Assembly (NCBI GenBank): GCA_017459315.1
Contig: JAFUDD010000167.1
Coordinates: 1-9,151, forward strand
DNA length: 9,151 nucleotides
Direction: 5' to 3'
Source: Clostridia bacterium
Lineage (GTDB): Bacteria > Bacillota_A > Clostridia > Christensenellales > CAG-138
Below are positions 1 through 9,151 of this stretch, one piece after another. Each line of letters starts with the position of its first letter. The first letter of the stretch is position 1. Under the pieces are notes generated by a model that saw only the letters and a list, made by a program, of their open reading frames with translations, made no database searches and had not been told where the DNA came from. The position numbers and the translations under genes were made by a program.

Positions 1-422
1 GTCATTTGGTCGTACTCTAAATCCTCTTTTAACTGATTCTTTATGTACTCCTCTATTTTCTTTGCATTTTTACCTACAGTATCTACGTAATAGCCTCTGC
101 ACCAGAAATGTCTATTGCCATACTTGTACTTTAAGTTCGCATGTGCGTCAAATATCATCAGCGCACTTTTCCCTTTTATGTAGCCCATAAAGCTCGATAT
201 ACTCATCTTTGGCGGGATACTCACCAGCATATGTACATGATCCGGCATTAGGTGCCCTTCAAGTATCTCTACGCCCTTATAATTGCATAGTTGTCTTAAT
301 ATCTTCCCTATACTTTCCCGGTATTGATTGTAAATGATTTTTCGTCTATACTTGGGGGTGAACACAATGTGGTACTTGCACAGCCATTTTGTGTGCGCTA
401 AACTGTTTTCCTGTTTAGCCAT
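1..422 (-). CDS. tnpA: IS200-type transposase TnpA (HUH/Y1), 3' end outside window
   Basis: The minus strand reads an open frame from ATG at 422-420 to the window edge, giving 140 residues. IS200 TnpA proteins are about 150 residues, so only the last few are missing. TnpA is a single-strand DNA transposase that cuts and rejoins the element ends through a 5'-phosphotyrosine. The protein opens MAKQENSLAHTKWLCKYHIV, a typical TnpA start. The metal-binding HUH motif is H62-V-H64 within MPDHVHMLVSIPP. The block FWCRGYYVDTVGKN (106-119) is followed by the likely catalytic tyrosine Y126 in EEYIKNQ, with Q130 as a possible further metal ligand. Its ribosome binding site GGAAGTGAGG (429-438) lies inside an inverted-repeat arm. 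The DNA is clearly more AT-rich than the rest of the window, which points to recent acquisition. No tnpB partner is visible, as expected for IS200 proper. The catalytic motifs seen look intact. Confidence 0.94.
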   Translation of the reverse strand, partial: MAKQENSLAHTKWLCKYHIVFTPKYRRKIIYNQYRESIGKILRQLCNYKGVEILEGHLMPDHVHMLVSIPPKMSISSFMGYIKGKSALMIFDAHANLKYKYGNRHFWCRGYYVDTVGKNAKKIEEYIKNQLKEDLEYDQM

Positions 423-2908: not shown

Positions 2909-4102
2909 CTATTTTTGTTTACCCTTTCGAAATAGAAACTTCCTTGCAGCCGAAAGGATGATCTTATACGGCGGCGGGAGCAGCGCCTTATCGGCCTCAA
3001 CGAGCTTATCGCGGATCGGGAGGCTTTGCGGACAATGCTTTTCGCACTTGCCGCACTTGATGCACGCGGTTGCATAGGCCGAGCCCTCACGCAGCGCGAC
3101 GGCCTGTGCGTATTGCTTTCGCCCGTCGAATTTGGATTCGGCGTACATCATATTGTACGCGGCGAAGATGCCCGGAATGTCGATCCCCTTGGGGCACGGC
3201 ATGCAGTAGCGGCAGCCCGTGCAGCCGACCTTTTCCTTGGCGCGGATCTCCGCGATCACGTCCCGCACCAGCGCGCGATCCGCGTCGGTCATGCAGCCGG
3301 GCAGCGCCGCATCCGCAATGCGGCAGTTCTCGCGCACCATATCGAGCGAGTTCATGCCAGACAGCACGCAGGTCACACCGGTTTGATCATACAGCCATCG
3401 TAAACCCAGCTCCGCGGGCGAATAGCCCGTGCCGGACGCCGCGATCTTCTTTTTCGCGCTCTCCGGCAGCAGGTTCACGAGCTTGCCGCCGCGCAGCGGC
3501 TCCATGATGACGACCGGGATGCCGAGCGCCTCGGCGCGCTCCAAGCCCTTGCGCCCCGCCTGCGCGTGCTCGTCCAAATAGTTATACTGGATCTGGCAGA
3601 AATCCCACGGATAGGCTTCCAGGATTTTAACGAACATTTCCGTATCGCCGTGGTAGGAAAAGCCGATGTTGCGGATCTGCCCCGCCGCCTTCTTCTGTGC
3701 GATCCAGTCCTCGATGCCGAGCTTTTGCAGCTTTTCCCATTGCACGTAATCCGTGAGGTGATGCATGAGGTAGTAATCGACATACGTGGTTTTCAGGCGC
3801 GACAGCTCCTCGTTGAAAAACTTATCGAGCGCGGCGGCGCTGCCGATCATGTACTGCGGGAGCTTCGTCGCAATGTTGACCTTTTCCCGGATGCCGTTGC
3901 GCTCCAAAATCGTGCCGAGCGCAACCTCGCTGCCGGGGTAGATGTAGGCCGTGTCGAAATAATTGACGCCGAGCCGGTACGCCTCCAAAAGCTCCTGTTC
4001 GGCCTTGTCGAGGTCGATCCGGCCGCCCTTTTGCGTGAAACGCATGCAGCCGTAGCCGAGCGCTGAGATCGGCTCGCCGTGCTTGTCCTTGCGGTATTGC
4101 AT
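2909..4102 (-). CDS. Aldo/keto reductase with C-terminal 2x[4Fe-4S] ferredoxin domain
   Basis: A 397-residue two-domain oxidoreductase. The N-terminal part (about 1-285) is an aldo/keto reductase TIM barrel. The likely catalytic residues are D50 and Y55 in FDTAYIYPGSE, K80 in ATKLP, and H114 or H115 in YLMHHLTDY. GFSYHG (147-152), QIQYNYLD and MEPLRGGKL match the predicted cytoplasmic AKR/ferredoxin fusion group. The C-terminal part binds two [4Fe-4S] clusters: C294, C297, C300, C303 and C347, C350, C353, C357. Relatives are common in anaerobes; substrates are mostly unknown, and electrons could pass between the clusters and a nicotinamide-dependent site. I start it at ATG 4102, behind GGAAAGGA and at the natural AKR beginning MQYRKDKHGEPISALGYG. 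The frame stays open further upstream but there covers the neighbouring gene. It is last in the minus-strand cluster, 26 bases after the methyltransferase-like gene, and its stop lies next to the shared terminator. A role in cytochrome maturation is not evident. Confidence 0.93.
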   Translation of the reverse strand: MQYRKDKHGEPISALGYGCMRFTQKGGRIDLDKAEQELLEAYRLGVNYFDTAYIYPGSEVALGTILERNGIREKVNIATKLPQYMIGSAAALDKFFNEELSRLKTTYVDYYLMHHLTDYVQWEKLQKLGIEDWIAQKKAAGQIRNIGFSYHGDTEMFVKILEAYPWDFCQIQYNYLDEHAQAGRKGLERAEALGIPVVIMEPLRGGKLVNLLPESAKKKIAASGTGYSPAELGLRWLYDQTGVTCVLSGMNSLDMVRENCRIADAALPGCMTDADRALVRDVIAEIRAKEKVGCTGCRYCMPCPKGIDIPGIFAAYNMMYAESKFDGRKQYAQAVALREGSAYATACIKCGKCEKHCPQSLPIRDKLVEADKALLPPPYKIILSAARKFLFRKGKQK

Positions 4103-4128
4103 AATGATTTCCTTTCCGTGGAGATAGT

Positions 4129-4944
4129 TTATTTCCGATACGCCGAAAGCCGCATCCGGTACGCCTTGTTCTGCGCCGGATCGAATGGCCAAAGCAGCGT
4201 CGTTTCCGCTTCCGGCCTGCCGAACCGCCGTATATCCGTCATGCCCTGCGCCGCGCCGTCGATGCCGCCCGCCACGCCGACGCGCTCGGCTTCCAAGCCG
4301 ATCAATACGGTTTGCTTGGCCCATGCAAACAGCGCGTCGTTCACGCGCCCGACAGCGGCGGGCAGATACCCGCGAAGCTGCGTCAGCACCCTGTCCGTAT
4401 CGAGCGGCGCATAGCGGGCGATCACCCCTGCGATCCGCGCAAACGGCACAAGCAGCTGCGAATGTACGCCGATGCAGACCGCGCTGTCGCATAGCTCTGT
4501 TTGCGCCGTCAGCGGCGACGGCGTGCGCTCTTGCATGGCGGCGTCCATGCCCGACAGAAAACGCGCCGTTACGTCGATTCTTTCGCCGCGCGCGTGCGCC
4601 CTTGCCGCGTTCACCATATCGTCCGCAAACGCGCGATAGGCTTCGTCCGAAACGCCCAAAAGATCGGCGCACAGCACCGTCACGCTTTCTGCGTCGATGC
4701 TTTGCCTTTGCAGGCCCGCTTGCATCGCGGCCTCGTCGCGGTCGAGCAGCGTTATTTGTGCATGACCCGTCAAGCGCCGCAAATCGAAATCGTTGCACGC
4801 GCCTGCGCCGACAAGCAGCAGCCGCCCGCCGGGCGCGGTATTGGTCAGAATAAAATCCGTCACGGCCTGCCGATACGCCGCCCACGCCTCATAGGCATTC
4901 GGGATTACGGTCAGGCGGGCAAGCTCGTCATAAAGACTGCTCAT
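4129..4944 (-). CDS. Rossmann-fold, class I SAM-methyltransferase-like protein of unknown function
   Basis: A 271-residue protein that I do not recognise as a named family. The centre looks like a class I SAM-dependent methyltransferase: strand RLLLV followed by the glycine loop GAGACND (46-52, motif I), then ITLLDRD (64-70) with an acidic end that could hold the SAM ribose, then VTVLCADLLGV (88-98) with D94 like the adenine-contact motif. The first 40 residues are helical, and the remainder holds helical stretches plus a short strand block near the C-terminus (ETTLLWPFD). There is no signal peptide or membrane segment. The substrate is unknown, and a nucleotide-binding Rossmann protein without methyltransferase activity is possible. 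Its ATG overlaps the ccsA stop as ATGA, and no clear Shine-Dalgarno precedes it, so translation probably depends on ccsA. That coupling hints at a job tied to cytochrome assembly or respiration, but this rests on context alone. Confidence 0.7.
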   Translation of the reverse strand: MSSLYDELARLTVIPNAYEAWAAYRQAVTDFILTNTAPGGRLLLVGAGACNDFDLRRLTGHAQITLLDRDEAAMQAGLQRQSIDAESVTVLCADLLGVSDEAYRAFADDMVNAARAHARGERIDVTARFLSGMDAAMQERTPSPLTAQTELCDSAVCIGVHSQLLVPFARIAGVIARYAPLDTDRVLTQLRGYLPAAVGRVNDALFAWAKQTVLIGLEAERVGVAGGIDGAAQGMTDIRRFGRPEAETTLLWPFDPAQNKAYRMRLSAYRK

Positions 4945-5756
4945 GCGTAGCTGTGAATGCCGGGCAGGAACGTGTTCACGCCGATGTAGGTGAACATGAC
5001 GCAGACGAAGCCCGCGACCGCAAAGATCGCGGCGGCCTTGCCGTGCCACCCGCGGCGGATGCGCAGATGCAGGTACGTCGCGTAGACGATCCACGTGACG
5101 AGCGACCACGTTTCCTTCGGGTCCCACGACCAATAGCTGCCCCACGCGCGCTCCGCCCAGATCGCGCCGGTGACGATGGTGAACGTCAAAAACAGCAGGC
5201 CGAGTGCGACGCTGCGGTAGCTGATCAGATCCAGCTTTTCCTTGTCGGGGATATGCCGATCCAAAAAGCCCTTGGCCTTCATCTTGTCGCGCAGCAGAAA
5301 GATGATCGACAGTACGAACGACACGCCGAACGCGCCGTAGGCAATGATTGCGGTGGAGACATGGAAGCCGAGCCAGTTGCTCCGAAGCGCCGGCATCAGC
5401 TCATGCACCTCCTTCGACTGCATCGCGGCATAGCCGATGATGAGGAAGATCACCGGCGCGGCGAACGCGCCGAGCACCGGGAACTTGAACTTGATCACAA
5501 AGATCAGCGACACAAGGCACAGTCCCCACGCGAACGAGGTTGCAAACTCATACTGGTTCGTGAGCGGCAGCCGCCCCGCGCCGATCCCGCGGCAGACGAG
5601 CGCCGCCGTGTGCAGCACAAGGCCCAATATCTGCAGGCCGACGGCGATCTTCGCCACCGGGTCCTTTTTGATGGCGATAAAGACAAAGTACAGGATCATT
5701 GCCGCAAAGTAAAGCAGCATGACGATCGTGAACAGTACATTTTCCACGGCTAACAT
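4941..5756 (-). CDS. ccsA: System II cytochrome c maturation protein CcsA (ResC; also named CcsB)
   Basis: A 271-residue integral membrane protein of the heme-handling CcsA/ResC family. With ResB it moves heme to the outer face of the membrane and joins it to apocytochrome c CXXCH sites. Several hydrophobic segments are visible (about 8-29, 35-54, 75-90, 95-112, 130-155, 183-200, 217-232 and 241-264). The tryptophan-rich heme-binding WWD loop is W205-GSYWSWDPKET-W217. Family marks also include GRLPLTNQYEF (61-71), H49 in a membrane segment, H132 in GFHVS and H268 in the terminal GIHSYA, candidates for heme ligation. The length is normal for the split (non-fused) form. Its ribosome binding site GGAGGAA lies inside the end of resB, 3 bases separate the two genes, and the start is ATG 5756. 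The next gene overlaps its stop codon. The neighbour nrfA, a pentaheme protein, is the obvious client. Confidence 0.95.
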   Translation of the reverse strand: MLAVENVLFTIVMLLYFAAMILYFVFIAIKKDPVAKIAVGLQILGLVLHTAALVCRGIGAGRLPLTNQYEFATSFAWGLCLVSLIFVIKFKFPVLGAFAAPVIFLIIGYAAMQSKEVHELMPALRSNWLGFHVSTAIIAYGAFGVSFVLSIIFLLRDKMKAKGFLDRHIPDKEKLDLISYRSVALGLLFLTFTIVTGAIWAERAWGSYWSWDPKETWSLVTWIVYATYLHLRIRRGWHGKAAAIFAVAGFVCVMFTYIGVNTFLPGIHSYA

Positions 5757-5759
5757 CGT

Positions 5760-7094
5760 TTATTCCTCCGTCTCCTTCGATTCTGTCGCGCCGGGCGCGG
5801 CCTTCTTGAACCGTTCCCGATACAGCGCGCCGCCCTTTTTGCTCTGCCCGCACATCGTCCATGTGCCGTCCGCGTCCTGCACCGCCCATACCTTTTCGGG
5901 CAGCAGGTAGAACGCGAGCACAAGGCCGAGCGTCGTCACGATCCCGCCGGCAAGCGCAAGCCCCGTAAACCGGTCGCGCTTGATTTGCAGCAGCGTATAG
6001 CTTTGCGGCTCGGTGAATGTGACCTCATATTCGTCGATCGTCAGCGGCTCGTCCGCCAGCAGCACATTCATGCCGACGAACCGATCCGTCTGCGTCACGG
6101 GATCGAGATAGTAGACCGCATACAGGTACGCGGGGTTGTTGAGGCTGCCGGACTGCGTCTGCGGCCCGACGCCCGGGACAAGCACATAATCGGGGTAAAA
6201 CGCCATAAAGATCACGCGCAGACCTGGCATATCGGTGATCGGCAGCGCGTCGCCCGCGCAGACGACCTCGCTTTGCAGCGGCACGCCGTCCTTTTTCACG
6301 TTGATCCTTGCCGCCCAGCCGGTCGAGTTCTGATAGAACGTCATGCCGAACAGCTTCGCGGGGTTGTTGACCGAAATCGTCGCGCGCTGCTCGTCCGGCT
6401 GCGTCGTGCTGCCCTGCGGCGCGCGGAACACCGTGATGTCCGCAATATACTGCGCCACGGTATCGTCCTCGCGCAGCTCCACACGAAAATCGTCGATCGT
6501 CACATATAAGCCGGTGTCCCCGATGGCGCGGGTCTGCCCCGCCACGCCGTAGGCCACGTATTCGGTCTTGGTGAACTGACCCAAAGAAAAGCCCAAAATC
6601 AGCAGCAGGATGCCGAGGTGACACACCCATGCGCCCCAAAGCCCGATCCGGTTTTTCGACGAAAAGCGCATCGCTTTTCCGTCCCGTTCGGTCTGCATCG
6701 CCTTGGGCATGTGCAGCGCGGCAAAGACGGCGTCCGGATCGGTCACGCCCTCGACCTTGACCGTCGCCGCGGCGTCGTTCGCCTTTGCCGGGTCGGCCTC
6801 GGCCTTGGTGCGCTCGATCAGCTGCGGCAGACGGATCACGTTGCAAAGCAGAAGGTTCAGCACCAAAAACGCGTTGATTGCAATAAACCACCAGCTGTGG
6901 AACGCATCGTCAAGGCTGAGCGCCACGATCAGCGCCGCCGTGCGCTCGGAATAGCGCGCCGCGTACCATTCATAGCTTTGCCCCTGCGTGACGAAGCTGC
7001 CCGCCGCGCAGGCGAGCGCGAGCACCACGAGCAGAATGATCGCAAACCGCATTGAGGACAGGAATTTCCAAATTTTGCGTACTGTATCCATCAT
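5760..7094 (-). CDS. resB: System II cytochrome c maturation protein ResB (Ccs1-like)
   Basis: A 444-residue ResB-family protein, partner of CcsA in System II, thought to hold reduced apocytochrome and help present heme to it. Membrane segments are visible at about 17-35, 68-87, 150-172 and 378-398. Between the last two lies a large extracytoplasmic beta-rich domain (about 175-375) with the family-like stretch NNPAKLFGMTFYQNSTGW (243-260). The C-terminal tail carrying KVWAVQ is also seen in relatives. I start it at ATG 7094 because GGAGAAG is placed 5 bases upstream; a second ATG follows directly at 7091 and could be used instead. The in-frame ATG at 7136 would add 14 polar residues and has no ribosome binding site. 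Its stop is 3 bases before the ccsA start. Upstream lies a hairpin terminator that separates it from nrfA, so expression probably needs readthrough or an unseen promoter; none was obvious in 7095-7155. Confidence 0.93.
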   Translation of the reverse strand: MMDTVRKIWKFLSSMRFAIILLVVLALACAAGSFVTQGQSYEWYAARYSERTAALIVALSLDDAFHSWWFIAINAFLVLNLLLCNVIRLPQLIERTKAEADPAKANDAAATVKVEGVTDPDAVFAALHMPKAMQTERDGKAMRFSSKNRIGLWGAWVCHLGILLLILGFSLGQFTKTEYVAYGVAGQTRAIGDTGLYVTIDDFRVELREDDTVAQYIADITVFRAPQGSTTQPDEQRATISVNNPAKLFGMTFYQNSTGWAARINVKKDGVPLQSEVVCAGDALPITDMPGLRVIFMAFYPDYVLVPGVGPQTQSGSLNNPAYLYAVYYLDPVTQTDRFVGMNVLLADEPLTIDEYEVTFTEPQSYTLLQIKRDRFTGLALAGGIVTTLGLVLAFYLLPEKVWAVQDADGTWTMCGQSKKGGALYRERFKKAAPGATESKETEE

Positions 7095-7155
7095 GAAATC
7101 TTCTCCGGCAGAAGAATCTGCCTGAATCTGCGCCATGAGCGCAAATCAAATTTTC

Positions 7156-7190
7156 AAAAAGCGCGGCGGAAAGCTGTATCTCCGCCGCGC
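7156..7190 (-). terminator. Intrinsic terminator or attenuator between nrfA and resB
   Basis: GCGCGGCGGA (7161-7170) and TCCGCCGCGC (7181-7190) form a perfect 10-bp GC-rich stem with a 10-base loop. On the minus strand five T follow directly (7160-7156), then GAAAATTT. It begins 17 bases beyond the nrfA stop codon and has full terminator form. It would make nrfA mRNA more abundant than the downstream maturation genes, or separate two units. Confidence 0.8.
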
Positions 7191-7207
7191 CCTTCCGTTG
7201 GGGATTG

Positions 7208-8515
7208 TTACCGGCCGAGCAAAGCCATGCCCTCGGCGATCCGCGCCTCTGCGGTATCGAGGCAGTAGAACGCCAGCTCGGAGTTGTGCGCGCCCTCGGC
7301 ATTCTCGACATAGCAGAAGTCGAAATACCATTGCGCCGTGCGGTAGACCTCGCGCACCGCGTCGAGCTCTTCCTCGCTCATTGTGCCGGCGGCGACGGTT
7401 TCCGCAAGCGCGGTCTTAAAATCGCTCAGCTTGTTGCCGACCTCGGTTTCCCGCGCGGTCACGCGATCCTGCAGACGGCGCACCATCGTCACCATGTCGG
7501 TGTCCTCATGGCACTGCGCGCAGGTGGACAGCAGCGTGGGATTCTCCAGCGGGCTGACAAGCTCATGGCTGTGGTAAACCGTGCCGTCCTCGGCCTGCTC
7601 CATCGGCATGTGGCAGTCCGCACAGTTCAGCAGCGCGGCATGCTTGCCGGAAAGGTACGTTTCCATCTCCGGGTGCTGCGCCTTCAGCATCTTTGTCCCG
7701 GTGCTCGGCTGTACCCAGTCATAGAAGCCGACCGAGCCGTCCGGCATGACCATGCTGTTGTAATACGCCAAGATCGCATCCGGCGACATCGAAGCCATGT
7801 CGCTGTACGGCATCATCGTTTCGCTGTCGGTCGGGGTGAAGTAGTATTCGATGTGGCATTGGCCGCAGGAGAGCGTCGCGGGGTCGATGGTGCCGACCGC
7901 GCTGCCGAGCGCCTTTGTGACATACGAATGTGTGATCGTGATCTGCCCCGCGTTGCCCGCGTCGTTGCCGTGGCAGGTGTAGCAGGAGACATTCTCCTCC
8001 ATCATTGCCATGACCTCGTCAAACGGCATCGAGTAGACCGACACGCCGAGGTCGTTGACGAGCTTCGTAAAGTTCGGCGTCTTGCAGGTTAAGCAGTTCG
8101 CCTTGGCGTGCGGACGCTCGGTCTTGGCAACGTCGGCAAGCGTGTATTCATGACCGCGCGCCGAGCCGTAGTCCTTCGCAAAGCCGTAACCCTCATAGAT
8201 GTTCACAAGGTACGGATCCTGCTCGAGATAGCTCACGACATAGCTGTTCTTGCTGTTCGCGCCCATTGTAGCGACGATGTAGGGATAGGTTGCCGCCCAG
8301 TCGGACGCGTTCACCGTGCCGTCCTTGCTTGTGGCGGCGGGCGCGGCGACGTTTTGATATTGAATGTCGCTCCGGGTCAGCGGGCCGATCGAATCGCGGT
8401 TGACGAGGTGATACATCACATCCTCGTTCGTCGCAATGCCGCCGAGCAGCAGCAGGACCGTCAGAACGATAACCGCGCCGATGATCAGCTTCAGCGCCTG
8501 ATTTCTCCATTCCAT
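7208..8515 (-). CDS. nrfA: Ammonia-forming pentaheme cytochrome c nitrite reductase NrfA
   Basis: A 435-residue NrfA, which reduces nitrite to ammonium with six electrons outside the cell membrane. Five heme sites are present in NrfA order: CLTCK (141-145, lysine-ligated catalytic heme), CYTCH (178-182), CGQCH (217-221), CADCH (298-302) and CAQCH (332-336). Active-site residues known from the family are present: R120 in SARGH, Y224/Y225 in HIEYYF, and K278-A-Q-H281, where the lysine contacts calcium and the histidine the substrate. The last makes it a KXQH-type NrfA and not KXRH. The N-terminus has a positively charged start and one hydrophobic helix (about 8-28). There is no lipobox cysteine and no convincing cleavage site, so it may stay as a membrane anchor. 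The start at ATG 8515 has AAGGAGGG, which overlaps the rnfB TAA stop 13 bases upstream. No nrfH lies on either side. resB and ccsA follow downstream. Confidence 0.97.
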   Translation of the reverse strand: MEWRNQALKLIIGAVIVLTVLLLLGGIATNEDVMYHLVNRDSIGPLTRSDIQYQNVAAPAATSKDGTVNASDWAATYPYIVATMGANSKNSYVVSYLEQDPYLVNIYEGYGFAKDYGSARGHEYTLADVAKTERPHAKANCLTCKTPNFTKLVNDLGVSVYSMPFDEVMAMMEENVSCYTCHGNDAGNAGQITITHSYVTKALGSAVGTIDPATLSCGQCHIEYYFTPTDSETMMPYSDMASMSPDAILAYYNSMVMPDGSVGFYDWVQPSTGTKMLKAQHPEMETYLSGKHAALLNCADCHMPMEQAEDGTVYHSHELVSPLENPTLLSTCAQCHEDTDMVTMVRRLQDRVTARETEVGNKLSDFKTALAETVAAGTMSEEELDAVREVYRTAQWYFDFCYVENAEGAHNSELAFYCLDTAEARIAEGMALLGR

Positions 8516-8527
8516 AGCGAACCCTCC

Positions 8528-9151
8528 TTATGCCGCGGGCGTGTCGCTCTTTGCAAGCGGCGGGGTGATGACCTTTGCGGGACACTTTGCGACGCACTTG
8601 CCGCATTGCATGCAGGTGTCGTAATTGACATGCGCAAGGTTATTGGTGACGGTGATCGAGCCGGTCTCGCACTGCTTGGTGCAGAGCATACAGCCGATGC
8701 AGCCCGCCGAGCAGACCTTCTTGACCTGCGGCCCCTTGTCCTTATTCGAGCATTGCACCGAAACGTGCTTGCTTTCGGGCACAAGCTCGATGAGTCCCTT
8801 CGGGCATGCCTTGACGCACAGACCGCAGCCGACGCACTTGTTCCGGTTCACGACCGCCACGCCGTCCACGACATGGATCGCATTTTGCGGGCAGACGCCG
8901 ACGCAGGAGCCGAGGCCGAGACAGCCATAGTCGCAGTCGGCCAGATTCAGGCCGGACAGCTCCGCCGAGCGGCAGTCCTTGATGCCGACATAGTTGCCCT
9001 GGTTCTTGGTGACCTCGCAGGAGCCCTTGCAGCGAACGAACGCGACCTTGCGCTCGACCGCCTCCGCGTCCTCGCCCATGATGCCGCCGATCTTTTCGGC
9101 GACCGGCGTTCCGCCGACCGGGCAGACATTGACCGGGGCGTCCCCCGCGAC
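8528..9151 (-). CDS. rnfB: RnfB-type ferredoxin-accepting subunit of the Rnf complex, 5' end outside window
   Basis: The frame is open to the window edge and shows 207 C-terminal residues. Rnf moves electrons from reduced ferredoxin to NAD+ while pumping ions; RnfB takes electrons from ferredoxin through its iron-sulfur clusters. Visible are the last cysteine of the RnfB FeS domain in APVNVCPVGG (5-14), then VAEKIGGIM and VAFVRCKGSCEVT. Four [4Fe-4S] cysteine groups follow: CDYGCLGLGSCVGVCP (73-88), CVGCGLCVKACP (106-117), CIGCMLCTKQC (151-161) and CMQCGKCVAKCP (180-191). The membrane helix and the first cysteines must lie upstream of the window. An internal ATG at 9079 is not a credible start, because family-conserved sequence continues above it. 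In Clostridia rnfB is normally the last gene of rnfCDGEAB, so the rest of Rnf is expected just outside. Its stop codon is part of the nrfA Shine-Dalgarno sequence, tying nrfA to the rnf operon. A stand-alone RnfB-like polyferredoxin is the alternative. Confidence 0.88.
   Translation of the reverse strand, partial: VAGDAPVNVCPVGGTPVAEKIGGIMGEDAEAVERKVAFVRCKGSCEVTKNQGNYVGIKDCRSAELSGLNLADCDYGCLGLGSCVGVCPQNAIHVVDGVAVVNRNKCVGCGLCVKACPKGLIELVPESKHVSVQCSNKDKGPQVKKVCSAGCIGCMLCTKQCETGSITVTNNLAHVNYDTCMQCGKCVAKCPAKVITPPLAKSDTPAA

Follow-up and report, generated by a model that had tools for sequence, protein, structure and literature searches.

Many uncultured bacteria of the rumen and gut that give no sign of quinone synthesis end their rnf operon with nrfA, which points to a new, short form of nitrite respiration. 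Nitrite ammonification is generally treated as a respiration fed by quinol. We think it likely that the rnfCDGEAB-nrfA genes, together with resB and ccsA, encode a self-contained, quinone-free nitrite-ammonifying chain in which Rnf feeds NrfA directly.

Organization of the window

On the reverse strand, the window (the whole stretch of DNA analyzed, 9,151 nucleotides from a Clostridia bacterium) carries rnfB lacking its 5′ part, 12 bases, nrfA, a terminator-like hairpin, resB and ccsA, in this order. The 3′ part of rnfB (8528–9151, reverse strand), the gene for the ferredoxin-type 4Fe-4S subunit of Rnf, encodes 207 amino acids and has its 5′ end beyond the window; the complete homologue in locus L003 has 272. 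The best matches of this ORF are RnfB-type models, all under the curated cut-offs, as is expected of a truncated protein. At the rnfB-nrfA junction (8516–8530, reverse strand), the rnfB stop codon TAA (8530–8528) abuts the ribosome binding site of nrfA, GGAGG (8527–8523), and the nrfA ATG follows at 8515–8513. The spacing of exactly 12 bases agrees with the initial annotation, and the same type of junction recurs in relatives.

The nrfA gene (7208–8515, reverse strand) encodes a pentaheme ammonia-forming nitrite reductase of 435 amino acids, which matches the whole PF02335 domain (250.8 bits, cut-off 24.1; E-value 3e-74) and has the E. coli enzyme as its best PDB match; with two narrower NrfA models of NCBIfam, its scores stay under the cut-offs. 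The protein contains one CXXCK and four CXXCH heme motifs. Among 82 NrfA sequences (loci and window), the five heme motifs are present in 80, and the heme and two active-site motifs are all intact in 74, one or more being missing in the other eight. R134, K145, Y224/Y225 and H281, aligned with E. coli NrfA, are invariant in alignment A1 (11 sequences); we take the catalytic Arg, Lys, Tyr and His positions to be those of the E. coli and Wolinella enzymes. By eye, the N-terminus has an uncleaved-looking membrane anchor at about residues 8–28 and, judged from this sequence, NrfA is anchored in the membrane by its own N-terminal helix.

Directly 3′ of nrfA, inspection and folding reveal a terminator-like hairpin with a T run (7156–7190, reverse strand); the folding energy computed for a 41-base stretch is −26.9 kcal/mol (z −5.9), and a consensus terminator scan that allowed loops of 3–8 gave no report of it. 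Among gaps exceeding 15 nt, comparable hairpins, counted by an ad hoc rule of our own, occur in 28 of 65 between nrfA and resB, as against none of 52 between rnfB and nrfA. The position of the hairpin suggests that nrfA is the final gene of the rnf transcription unit. No promoter-like site was found by a sigma-70 consensus scan of 4900–9151. Farther downstream lie resB (5760–7136, reverse strand; PF05140; start perhaps at 7094 or 7091), for system II cytochrome c maturation, and ccsA/ccsB (4941–5756, reverse strand; PF01578; TIGR03144 above cut-off), for the system II heme lyase partner. Where 2.5 kb or more of downstream sequence is available (66 loci), both genes follow nrfA in 63, the pair beside nrfA being incomplete in three operons. 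When ORFs of at least 100 amino acids were called mechanically, every other family proved to be confined to 13 or fewer of 81 sequences.

Conservation of the rnf-nrfA operon

From 286 relatives, the best 80 loci were compared, which have 66–82% identity to the query. They come from 79 genomes other than the source genome of the window, all of them uncultured assemblies that are possibly incomplete or contaminated, and bear record titles that are mostly Clostridia, with some Spirochaetes. In all 77 of these best 80 loci whose contig extends at least 1 kb upstream, rnfB lies upstream of nrfA on the same strand (76 if the count is limited to 4 kb, an insert in L062 shifting the rnfB start to 4.3 kb); the remaining three contigs start at nrfA or at most 0.1 kb from it. 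Chance adjacency and a single-genome artefact are excluded by this count. The two genes overlap, are fused or are at most 90 nt apart in 70 of the 77 loci, and in the other seven, inserted DNA of roughly 0.2–3.5 kb separates them; in L062 and L076, a fumarate-reductase-like enzyme with FMN-binding domains sits between them. The rnfCDGEA genes that the initial annotation proposed to look for upstream, beyond the end of the window, are present in relatives: wherever the contig extends 6 kb or more upstream (57 loci), the full rnfC-D-G-E-A-B set is there, the gene string being exact in 55, whereas L027 and L044 have all genes plus one extra partial call.

The sequence distances of NrfA and Rnf are correlated (Mantel r 0.78; none of 1000 permutations equally high) in the 60 of 81 sequences in which all genes were long enough, and the three spirochaete operons of this set have 72–74% identity to the nearest non-spirochaete operons, in NrfA and Rnf alike. 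Exactly one RnfC_N match of at least 100 bits is found in 66 of the 79 genomes, several in seven and none in six. Eight additional RnfC stretches were checked for a second Rnf: in L090, L091 and L093, rnfC is the only rnf gene of the stretch, L092, L094 and L095 have incomplete rnf sets, and L088 and L089 are the Rnf of class controls, L088 being cut by the contig end after C, D and G. More distant NrfA proteins were sampled through 291 genomes of the class only, three of which have NrfA, one being G003 itself. In the class-mates G162 and G241, which are other Clostridia, NrfA is accompanied by resB-ccsA but not by NrfH, and the Rnf genes lie elsewhere in the genome; NrfA is evidently usable there without linkage to an rnf operon.

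Subunit fusions and features of Rnf

RnfB and NrfA form a single ORF in L063 and L080 and are also fused in five database proteins (P0001, P0002 and P0005–P0007), and these fusions fall in two lineages. An ATG and a sequence resembling a ribosome binding site are retained inside the fused ORFs, so free NrfA might be made too. RnfD and RnfG are encoded by one ORF in 70 of 70 cases, and by separate ones in the Rnf of the two class-mates with unlinked nrfA. The motif from which FMN attachment is predicted is present in 65 of 70 RnfG segments, the other five deviating, and in 66 of 70 RnfD segments, where three complete exceptions keep the acceptor Thr without the first Ser/Thr and one sequence is truncated. 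The RnfG of L003 has one FMN domain, and CXXCH occurs in one of 140 RnfD or RnfG segments. RnfC, the subunit with the NADH site, is of full length in L003, and its alignment with the RnfC structures of C. tetanomorphum and A. woodii covers nearly the whole chain, so that ordinary ferredoxin:NAD+ activity is probably kept alongside. Because the full RnfC is retained and Rnf probably still serves NAD, NrfA is probably a branch from Rnf and not a replacement of the NAD route.

The same complete RnfC would also suit a complex in which NADH is the main donor and electrons pass from RnfC through RnfD and RnfG to NrfA, bypassing the Na+-coupled RnfA/E, and the joining of RnfD and RnfG in one chain may favor this route. 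However, the fusion partner of NrfA in both lineages is RnfB, the ferredoxin-side subunit, and RnfA, RnfB and RnfE are all kept although they would be needless for transfer from NADH to nitrite alone; we therefore regard NADH as an unlikely main donor.

Other electron donors and quinones

NrfH (NapC/NirT family, PF03264) was found in none of the 79 relatives' genomes and in none of ten window ORFs scanned, by a search in which E. coli was the only positive among 14 controls and no Gram-positive served as a positive control. NrfD (PF03916) was likewise found in none of the 79 genomes, with 4 of 14 controls positive. UbiA-type prenyltransferases exceed the cut-off in 3 of the 79 genomes, as against 14 of 14 controls, and two more weak matches fall under it. 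Two of the three fit models of decaprenyl-phosphate phosphoribosyltransferase, a non-quinone enzyme, best; the third, on a 4.8 kb contig of G352, is closest to MenA models, under every cut-off, and MenD was not found in that genome. MenD is above the cut-off in one of the 79 genomes and under it in 36 more (controls, 7 of 14). The sole UbiA match of the MenD-carrying G322 resembles the non-quinone enzyme, and G012 has a sub-cut-off MenD-like match of 168 bits and no UbiA. PF02621 is above the cut-off in three genomes, always as a weak and partial match, and under it in 12 more. In none of the 79 genomes do a MenA-like protein and MenD occur together, or is there a good match to the futalosine pathway. 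A hidden quinol route was set aside after these searches of the relatives. The quinone-free transfer from Rnf to NrfA proposed in the initial annotation, with neither an NrfH or NrfD donor nor a complete menaquinone pathway, is thus supported in the relatives' genomes rather than in the window's own, and the RnfB-NrfA fusions, which were invisible to that annotation, strengthen it.

Other c-type cytochromes, sought with one general model (PF14537), gave weak matches in 3 of the 79 genomes, and the single match above the cut-off is a 743-aa frame, the length of the RnfB-NrfA frame of that genome. This finding bears on the explanation that nrfA is merely co-regulated on the rnf transcript, NrfA being reduced by a diffusible flavin, an unlinked flavoprotein or an unrecognized cytochrome. 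The two class-mates in which NrfA-resB-ccsA is unlinked to rnf, and NrfH is missing, do imply an unlinked donor there. Nevertheless, the one PF14537 match above the cut-off is a frame as long as RnfB-NrfA itself, RnfB and NrfA are fused in two lineages, their genes stay adjacent across records of two phyla, and the NrfA and Rnf distances are correlated, all of which makes co-regulation alone quite improbable.

PF00384 molybdopterin oxidoreductases are present in only 8 of the 79 genomes, so for most carriers nitrate reduction by such an enzyme is no source of nitrite. NrfA enzymes also act on NO, hydroxylamine and sulfite. Given that capacity and the rarity of PF00384 proteins, the enzyme might, with Rnf as donor, serve mainly in protection against NO or hydroxylamine or in sulfite reduction; but its active-site residues are the standard set, and nitrite is described, in the part of the source available to us, as accumulating in the rumen in dependence on feed nitrate (PMC6776011), and we give little credence to a main substrate other than nitrite.

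Proposed electron path

We infer that Rnf passes electrons directly to NrfA, with RnfG as the donor and with ferredoxin rather than NADH as the main electron source, and that the chain conserves energy. Reduced ferredoxin would hand electrons to RnfB, from which they would traverse the membrane through RnfA/E, a step that is coupled to Na+ release in the Rnf of Acetobacterium woodii, according to the accessible text of PMC11889175, and reach the outer face, where RnfG carries its covalent FMN. The FMN of RnfG would then reduce a heme of NrfA docked alongside, with neither quinone nor NrfH, and NrfA would carry out the six-electron reduction of nitrite to ammonium. Without nitrite, electrons would take the usual Rnf route back to NAD+, by way of RnfD and then RnfC. 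Because most of the genomes are without a molybdopterin nitrate reductase, nitrite is probably supplied by neighbors, and its reduction would serve as electron sink and detoxification. An electron left on the outer side would offset the charge of the Na+ that accompanied it, so the chain may or may not give a net energy yield.

A bolder reading, which we judge as likely as not, is that the complex is a Na+-pumping ferredoxin:nitrite oxidoreductase supercomplex with NrfA as a permanent seventh subunit of Rnf, and that Rnf is a general plug-in base. To this reading belong the covalent joining of NrfA to RnfB in two lineages and a setting with no quinone, NrfH or free cytochrome; the plug-ins would be outer-face terminal reductases in quinone-free gut bacteria, the fumarate-reductase-like enzymes with FMN domains in the same operons being further ones. 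We know of no shorter respiratory chain to nitrite than such a supercomplex.

If Rnf feeds NrfA directly, presumed pure fermenters would gain a respiratory outlet for low-potential electrons, which would be diverted from becoming H2 and, in the rumen, methane. Such organisms could be recognized from sequence by rnfB beside nrfA or by the RnfD-RnfG fusion, and the system would be a bacterial counterpart to Rnf-MmcA and a case in which the partitioning of Rnf electrons between NAD+ and an external acceptor could be tested.

Comparison with known systems

No description of an Rnf-NrfA chain was found in our literature search. The quinol:nitrite reductase NrfHA of the Wolinella type, exemplified in the available text of PMC12780646 by nrfH1A1 of Sporomusa ovata, shares with the present system an NrfA with CXXCK and four CXXCH motifs, the catalytic residues and, by family, the ammonium product. 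It differs in that NrfH is found in none of the 79 relatives' genomes, which have no quinone pathway on the markers tested, and in that NrfA here has its own helix and belongs to the rnf operon. The NrfABCD system of the E. coli type is set apart by NrfD, also found in none of those genomes.

The Rnf complexes of Acetobacterium woodii and Clostridium tetanomorphum (PDB 9eri series and 7zc6) have the same six subunits in the order CDGEAB, and RnfC, RnfD and RnfG match their solved chains. In those complexes RnfD and RnfG are separate, whereas here they form one chain (70 of 70), and the nrfA gene or NrfA domain follows RnfB. In the Rnf-MmcA system of Methanosarcina acetivorans, a multiheme cytochrome from the rnf operon likewise directs Rnf electrons to a non-NAD acceptor; MmcA, as described in the portion of PMC11024163 available, has seven hemes and is related to octaheme tetrathionate reductases; its gene comes first in the operon, and its electrons go to methanophenazine. 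By contrast, the cytochrome here is NrfA, which is unrelated to MmcA, is encoded in bacteria by the last gene, after rnfB, and is itself the terminal enzyme. Finally, the multi-flavinylated or multiheme RnfG proteins of Christensenellales, reported in hosts possibly related to the present ones (eLife 2021, PMC8238504, in excerpt), share the idea of a second outward path from bacterial Rnf; the extra cofactors of those systems lie within RnfG, and the available text of that paper does not name a terminal enzyme, whereas here the acceptor would be NrfA.

The rnf-nrfA Operon and its Conservation

On the reverse strand of the window, rnfB, which is entered mid-gene, is followed by nrfA, resB and ccsA. 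The initial annotation had the rnfB stop codon running into the nrfA ribosome binding site with 12 bases between the genes, and the coordinates match exactly: the TAA lies at 8530-8528 (reverse strand), GGAGG follows directly, and the nrfA ATG starts at 8515 (reverse strand). Relatives were collected with the window NrfA as query, one genome per species; 286 were obtained, and the best 80 loci were kept, representing 79 genomes (L032 and L070 are in the same genome). According to their titles, all 79 are metagenome-assembled genomes or uncultured-bacterium assemblies, mostly of Clostridia or Clostridiales, with a minority named Spirochaetes, Solobacterium or Erysipelothrix. Judging by the same titles, in which RUG denotes rumen, the sources are mostly ruminants.

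The junction proves to be general beyond this window. When three contigs that start at nrfA or no more than 0.1 kb from it are excluded from the best 80 of the 286 relatives, rnfB lies upstream of nrfA on the same strand in 77 of 77 loci; the genes are separated by at most 90 nt, overlap or are fused in 70 of these, and the other seven carry an insert. All 57 loci whose contigs extend 6 kb or more upstream hold rnfC-D-G-E-A-B complete and in this order, as that exact string in 55 and with one additional partial call in L027 and L044. Downstream of nrfA, resB and ccsA occur in 63 of the 66 loci that extend 2.5 kb or more on that side (L020 and L042 have neither, and L031 has resB only). Among mechanically called ORFs, no further conserved neighbour family was found in more than 13 of 81 sequences.

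Sequence 3′ of the window nrfA contains a 41-base stretch with a strong predicted hairpin and T residues after it (-26.9 kcal/mol, z -5.9). Applying a simple rule of our own to gaps longer than 15 nt, we found similar hairpins in 28 of 65 between nrfA and resB (14 other gaps are shorter) and in none of 52 between rnfB and nrfA, many of them short (26 others are shorter or fused). The distribution of these hairpins makes it look as if the rnf unit ends with nrfA, and resB-ccsA would be transcribed separately or by read-through. Also on the reverse strand of the window are an IS200/IS605-type transposase gene whose 3′ end lies beyond the window (3-422), genes for a nitroreductase-family protein (669-1253) and an aldo/keto reductase with a C-terminal 4Fe-4S domain (2909-4105), and two ORFs (1163-1849 and 4129-4938) for which neither Pfam nor NCBIfam gave a match at E 0.001.

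Distances between NrfA sequences correlate with those between concatenated Rnf sequences (r 0.78; 0 of 1000 permutations as high) in the 60 of 81 sequences in which all parts were long enough. The three spirochaete operons in this set are mutually nearest, and their 72-74% identity to the nearest non-spirochaete operon, in NrfA and in Rnf alike, suggests that the operon was transferred as one unit.

The NrfA Protein and RnfB-NrfA Fusions

The window NrfA matches the NrfA proteins of E. coli and Desulfovibrio, among others. Of 82 NrfA sequences, 74 preserve the heme motifs together with CGQCHxEYYF and KAQHP; of the remainder, three lack an exact EYYF, three lack an exact KAQHP, and two lack a heme motif and EYYF. 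R134, K145, Y224, Y225 and H281, which we take to be the catalytic residues, are invariant in an 11-sequence alignment. Most of nine inspected N-termini begin with a few charged residues and then a hydrophobic helix, with no obvious lipobox, whereas the NrfA proteins of the class-mates G162 and G241, 33-39% identical to that of the window, are lipoprotein-like.

In L063 and L080, RnfB and NrfA form a single uninterrupted frame from the RnfB start (705 and 721 residues, respectively). A protein search scored the 7995 candidates with the most words in common, and its list of the best 120 contained five further fusions (P0001, P0002 and P0005 of the L063 type; P0006 and P0007 of the L080 type). 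Because the fusion recurs in these five proteins, each with 2 to 26 member sequences, assembly error is an unlikely source. Both fused genes still contain an internal ATG, accompanied by a ribosome-binding-site-like sequence, and some free NrfA may therefore still be produced. Judging from charges and the Rnf topology, the order of the fusion would fit the membrane, with the iron-sulfur part of RnfB inside, the NrfA helix crossing and NrfA outside. RnfD and RnfG are also in one frame, in all 70 loci where both are readable; they are separate in G162 and G241.

Five other database proteins (P0003, P0004 and P0009-P0011; 774-817 aa) have a double-NrfA appearance, and the two that were checked, P0003 and P0010, contain two complete NrfA domains, each with the full set of five heme motifs. 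As NrfA is a dimer, these may be single-chain dimers. Two consecutive nrfA genes occur in L024 (10007-12430).

Electron Donors and Quinone Markers

NrfH and NrfD were each found in none of the 79 relatives' genomes. UbiA exceeds the cut-off in three of the 79 (two more are weak and below it), and 14 of 14 control genomes are positive. Two of the three proteins best match decaprenyl-phosphate phosphoribosyltransferase models, one over a cut-off, and the third is MenA-like but below all cut-offs. MenD exceeds the cut-off in one genome; matches below it in 36 others were taken as related thiamine-diphosphate enzymes. One MenD-like match of 168 bits, below the cut-off, lies at C9:17920-19140 in the genome of L014, which has no UbiA match. 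PF02621, another quinone-pathway marker, exceeds the cut-off in three of 79 genomes, every match being weak and partial. By these tests, none of the 79 genomes combines a MenA-like gene with MenD. The general c-type cytochrome model PF14537 exceeds the cut-off in one of 79, in a 743-aa open frame that is an NrfA fusion judging by its length.

PF02335 was found in three of 291 genomes of the same class: G003, G162 and G241. In the latter two, NrfH was not found, nrfA-resB-ccsA stands apart from rnf (additional stretches L081, L082, L084 and L096-L098), and Rnf is encoded elsewhere in the genome; G162 has two UbiA matches and G241 none. This contrast cuts both ways: linkage to rnf is special to the NrfA clade of the window, yet the lack of NrfH alongside NrfA extends beyond that clade.

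Molybdopterin oxidoreductases (PF00384) occur in only 8 of the 79 genomes, one as a weak partial match, so most carriers likely rely on nitrite made by others.

A Possible Electron Path

In the Rnf of A. woodii, ferredoxin is described as passing its electrons to RnfB and the RnfA/E cluster, from where they reach the FMN of RnfG and then RnfD and RnfC; Na+ is released as they move from RnfA/E to RnfG (PMC11889175). By analogy, its position in this path makes RnfG the natural exit point: electrons would run from ferredoxin through RnfB and RnfA/E to the RnfG FMN and then, in a final hop that we infer, to an NrfA heme and nitrite. L003 encodes a complete RnfC, which can be aligned nearly end to end with a solved RnfC, and the NAD branch is thus probably retained. 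An electron used outside together with outside protons would cancel the charge of the co-moved Na+; a Na+ gradient could still be formed, but the net energy gain from the branch is uncertain. The practical role of the branch may chiefly be that of an electron sink and a means of removing nitrite. The initial interpretation, in which ferredoxin supplies NrfA through Rnf, is supported at the genome level, the electron step itself being a proposal.

Two loci carry a different reductase in the rnfB-nrfA interval (L062, 6495-9964; L076, 3278-5428), an FMN_bind and FAD_binding_2 protein of the fumarate-reductase-like group. That of L076 has two FMN_bind stretches and exceeds the cut-off of a flavocytochrome c model; that of L062 exceeds no cut-off among 25 families listed and, as judged by eye, bears a twin-arginine-like signal; a TatA/B-like gene, a short ORF and tatC come before it. 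These two examples suggest that the Rnf operon is a collecting place for outer-face reductases.

Three further stretches (L090, L091 and L093) contain, as their sole rnf gene, an RnfC-like gene in a long open frame. The next ORF in L091 and L093 resembles, by eye, a methylenetetrahydrofolate reductase partner, and we presume these to be of the RnfC2-MetVF type. L094 and L095 each hold a second Rnf-like set consisting of rnfC-D-E-A, and neither stretch gave an rnfB match.

Comparison with Known Systems

Among the matches listed in mostly open-access, published full texts on Rnf together with nrfA or cytochrome c nitrite reductase, no title or abstract opening described an rnf-nrfA operon; four papers that name rnfB or RnfG together with nrfA were covered at the level of these listings (PMC4837345, PMC3534657, PMC4229854, PMC12908670). 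The gene-cluster tables of an eLife paper (PMC8238504) may hold such loci uncommented. Genome and metagenome papers naming both Rnf and NrfA treat them separately in the passages concerned (PMC6479175, PMC5317091, PMC5285517, PMC4700951), one of which reports genes for both as abundant in the rumen (PMC6479175). In a 2025 RNF/NQR review, nitrite has no occurrence and cytochrome one, for the archaeal case (PMC12174285). The pump and the reductase are both known, but we have found no description of their being joined in this way. One of the nearest earlier ideas is the MmcA-Rnf pair, MmcA being described as absent from bacteria in which Rnf works between ferredoxin and NAD (PMC11024163); the other, reported from Christensenellales, is a bifurcated Rnf with a multi-flavin, multiheme RnfG (PMC8238504).
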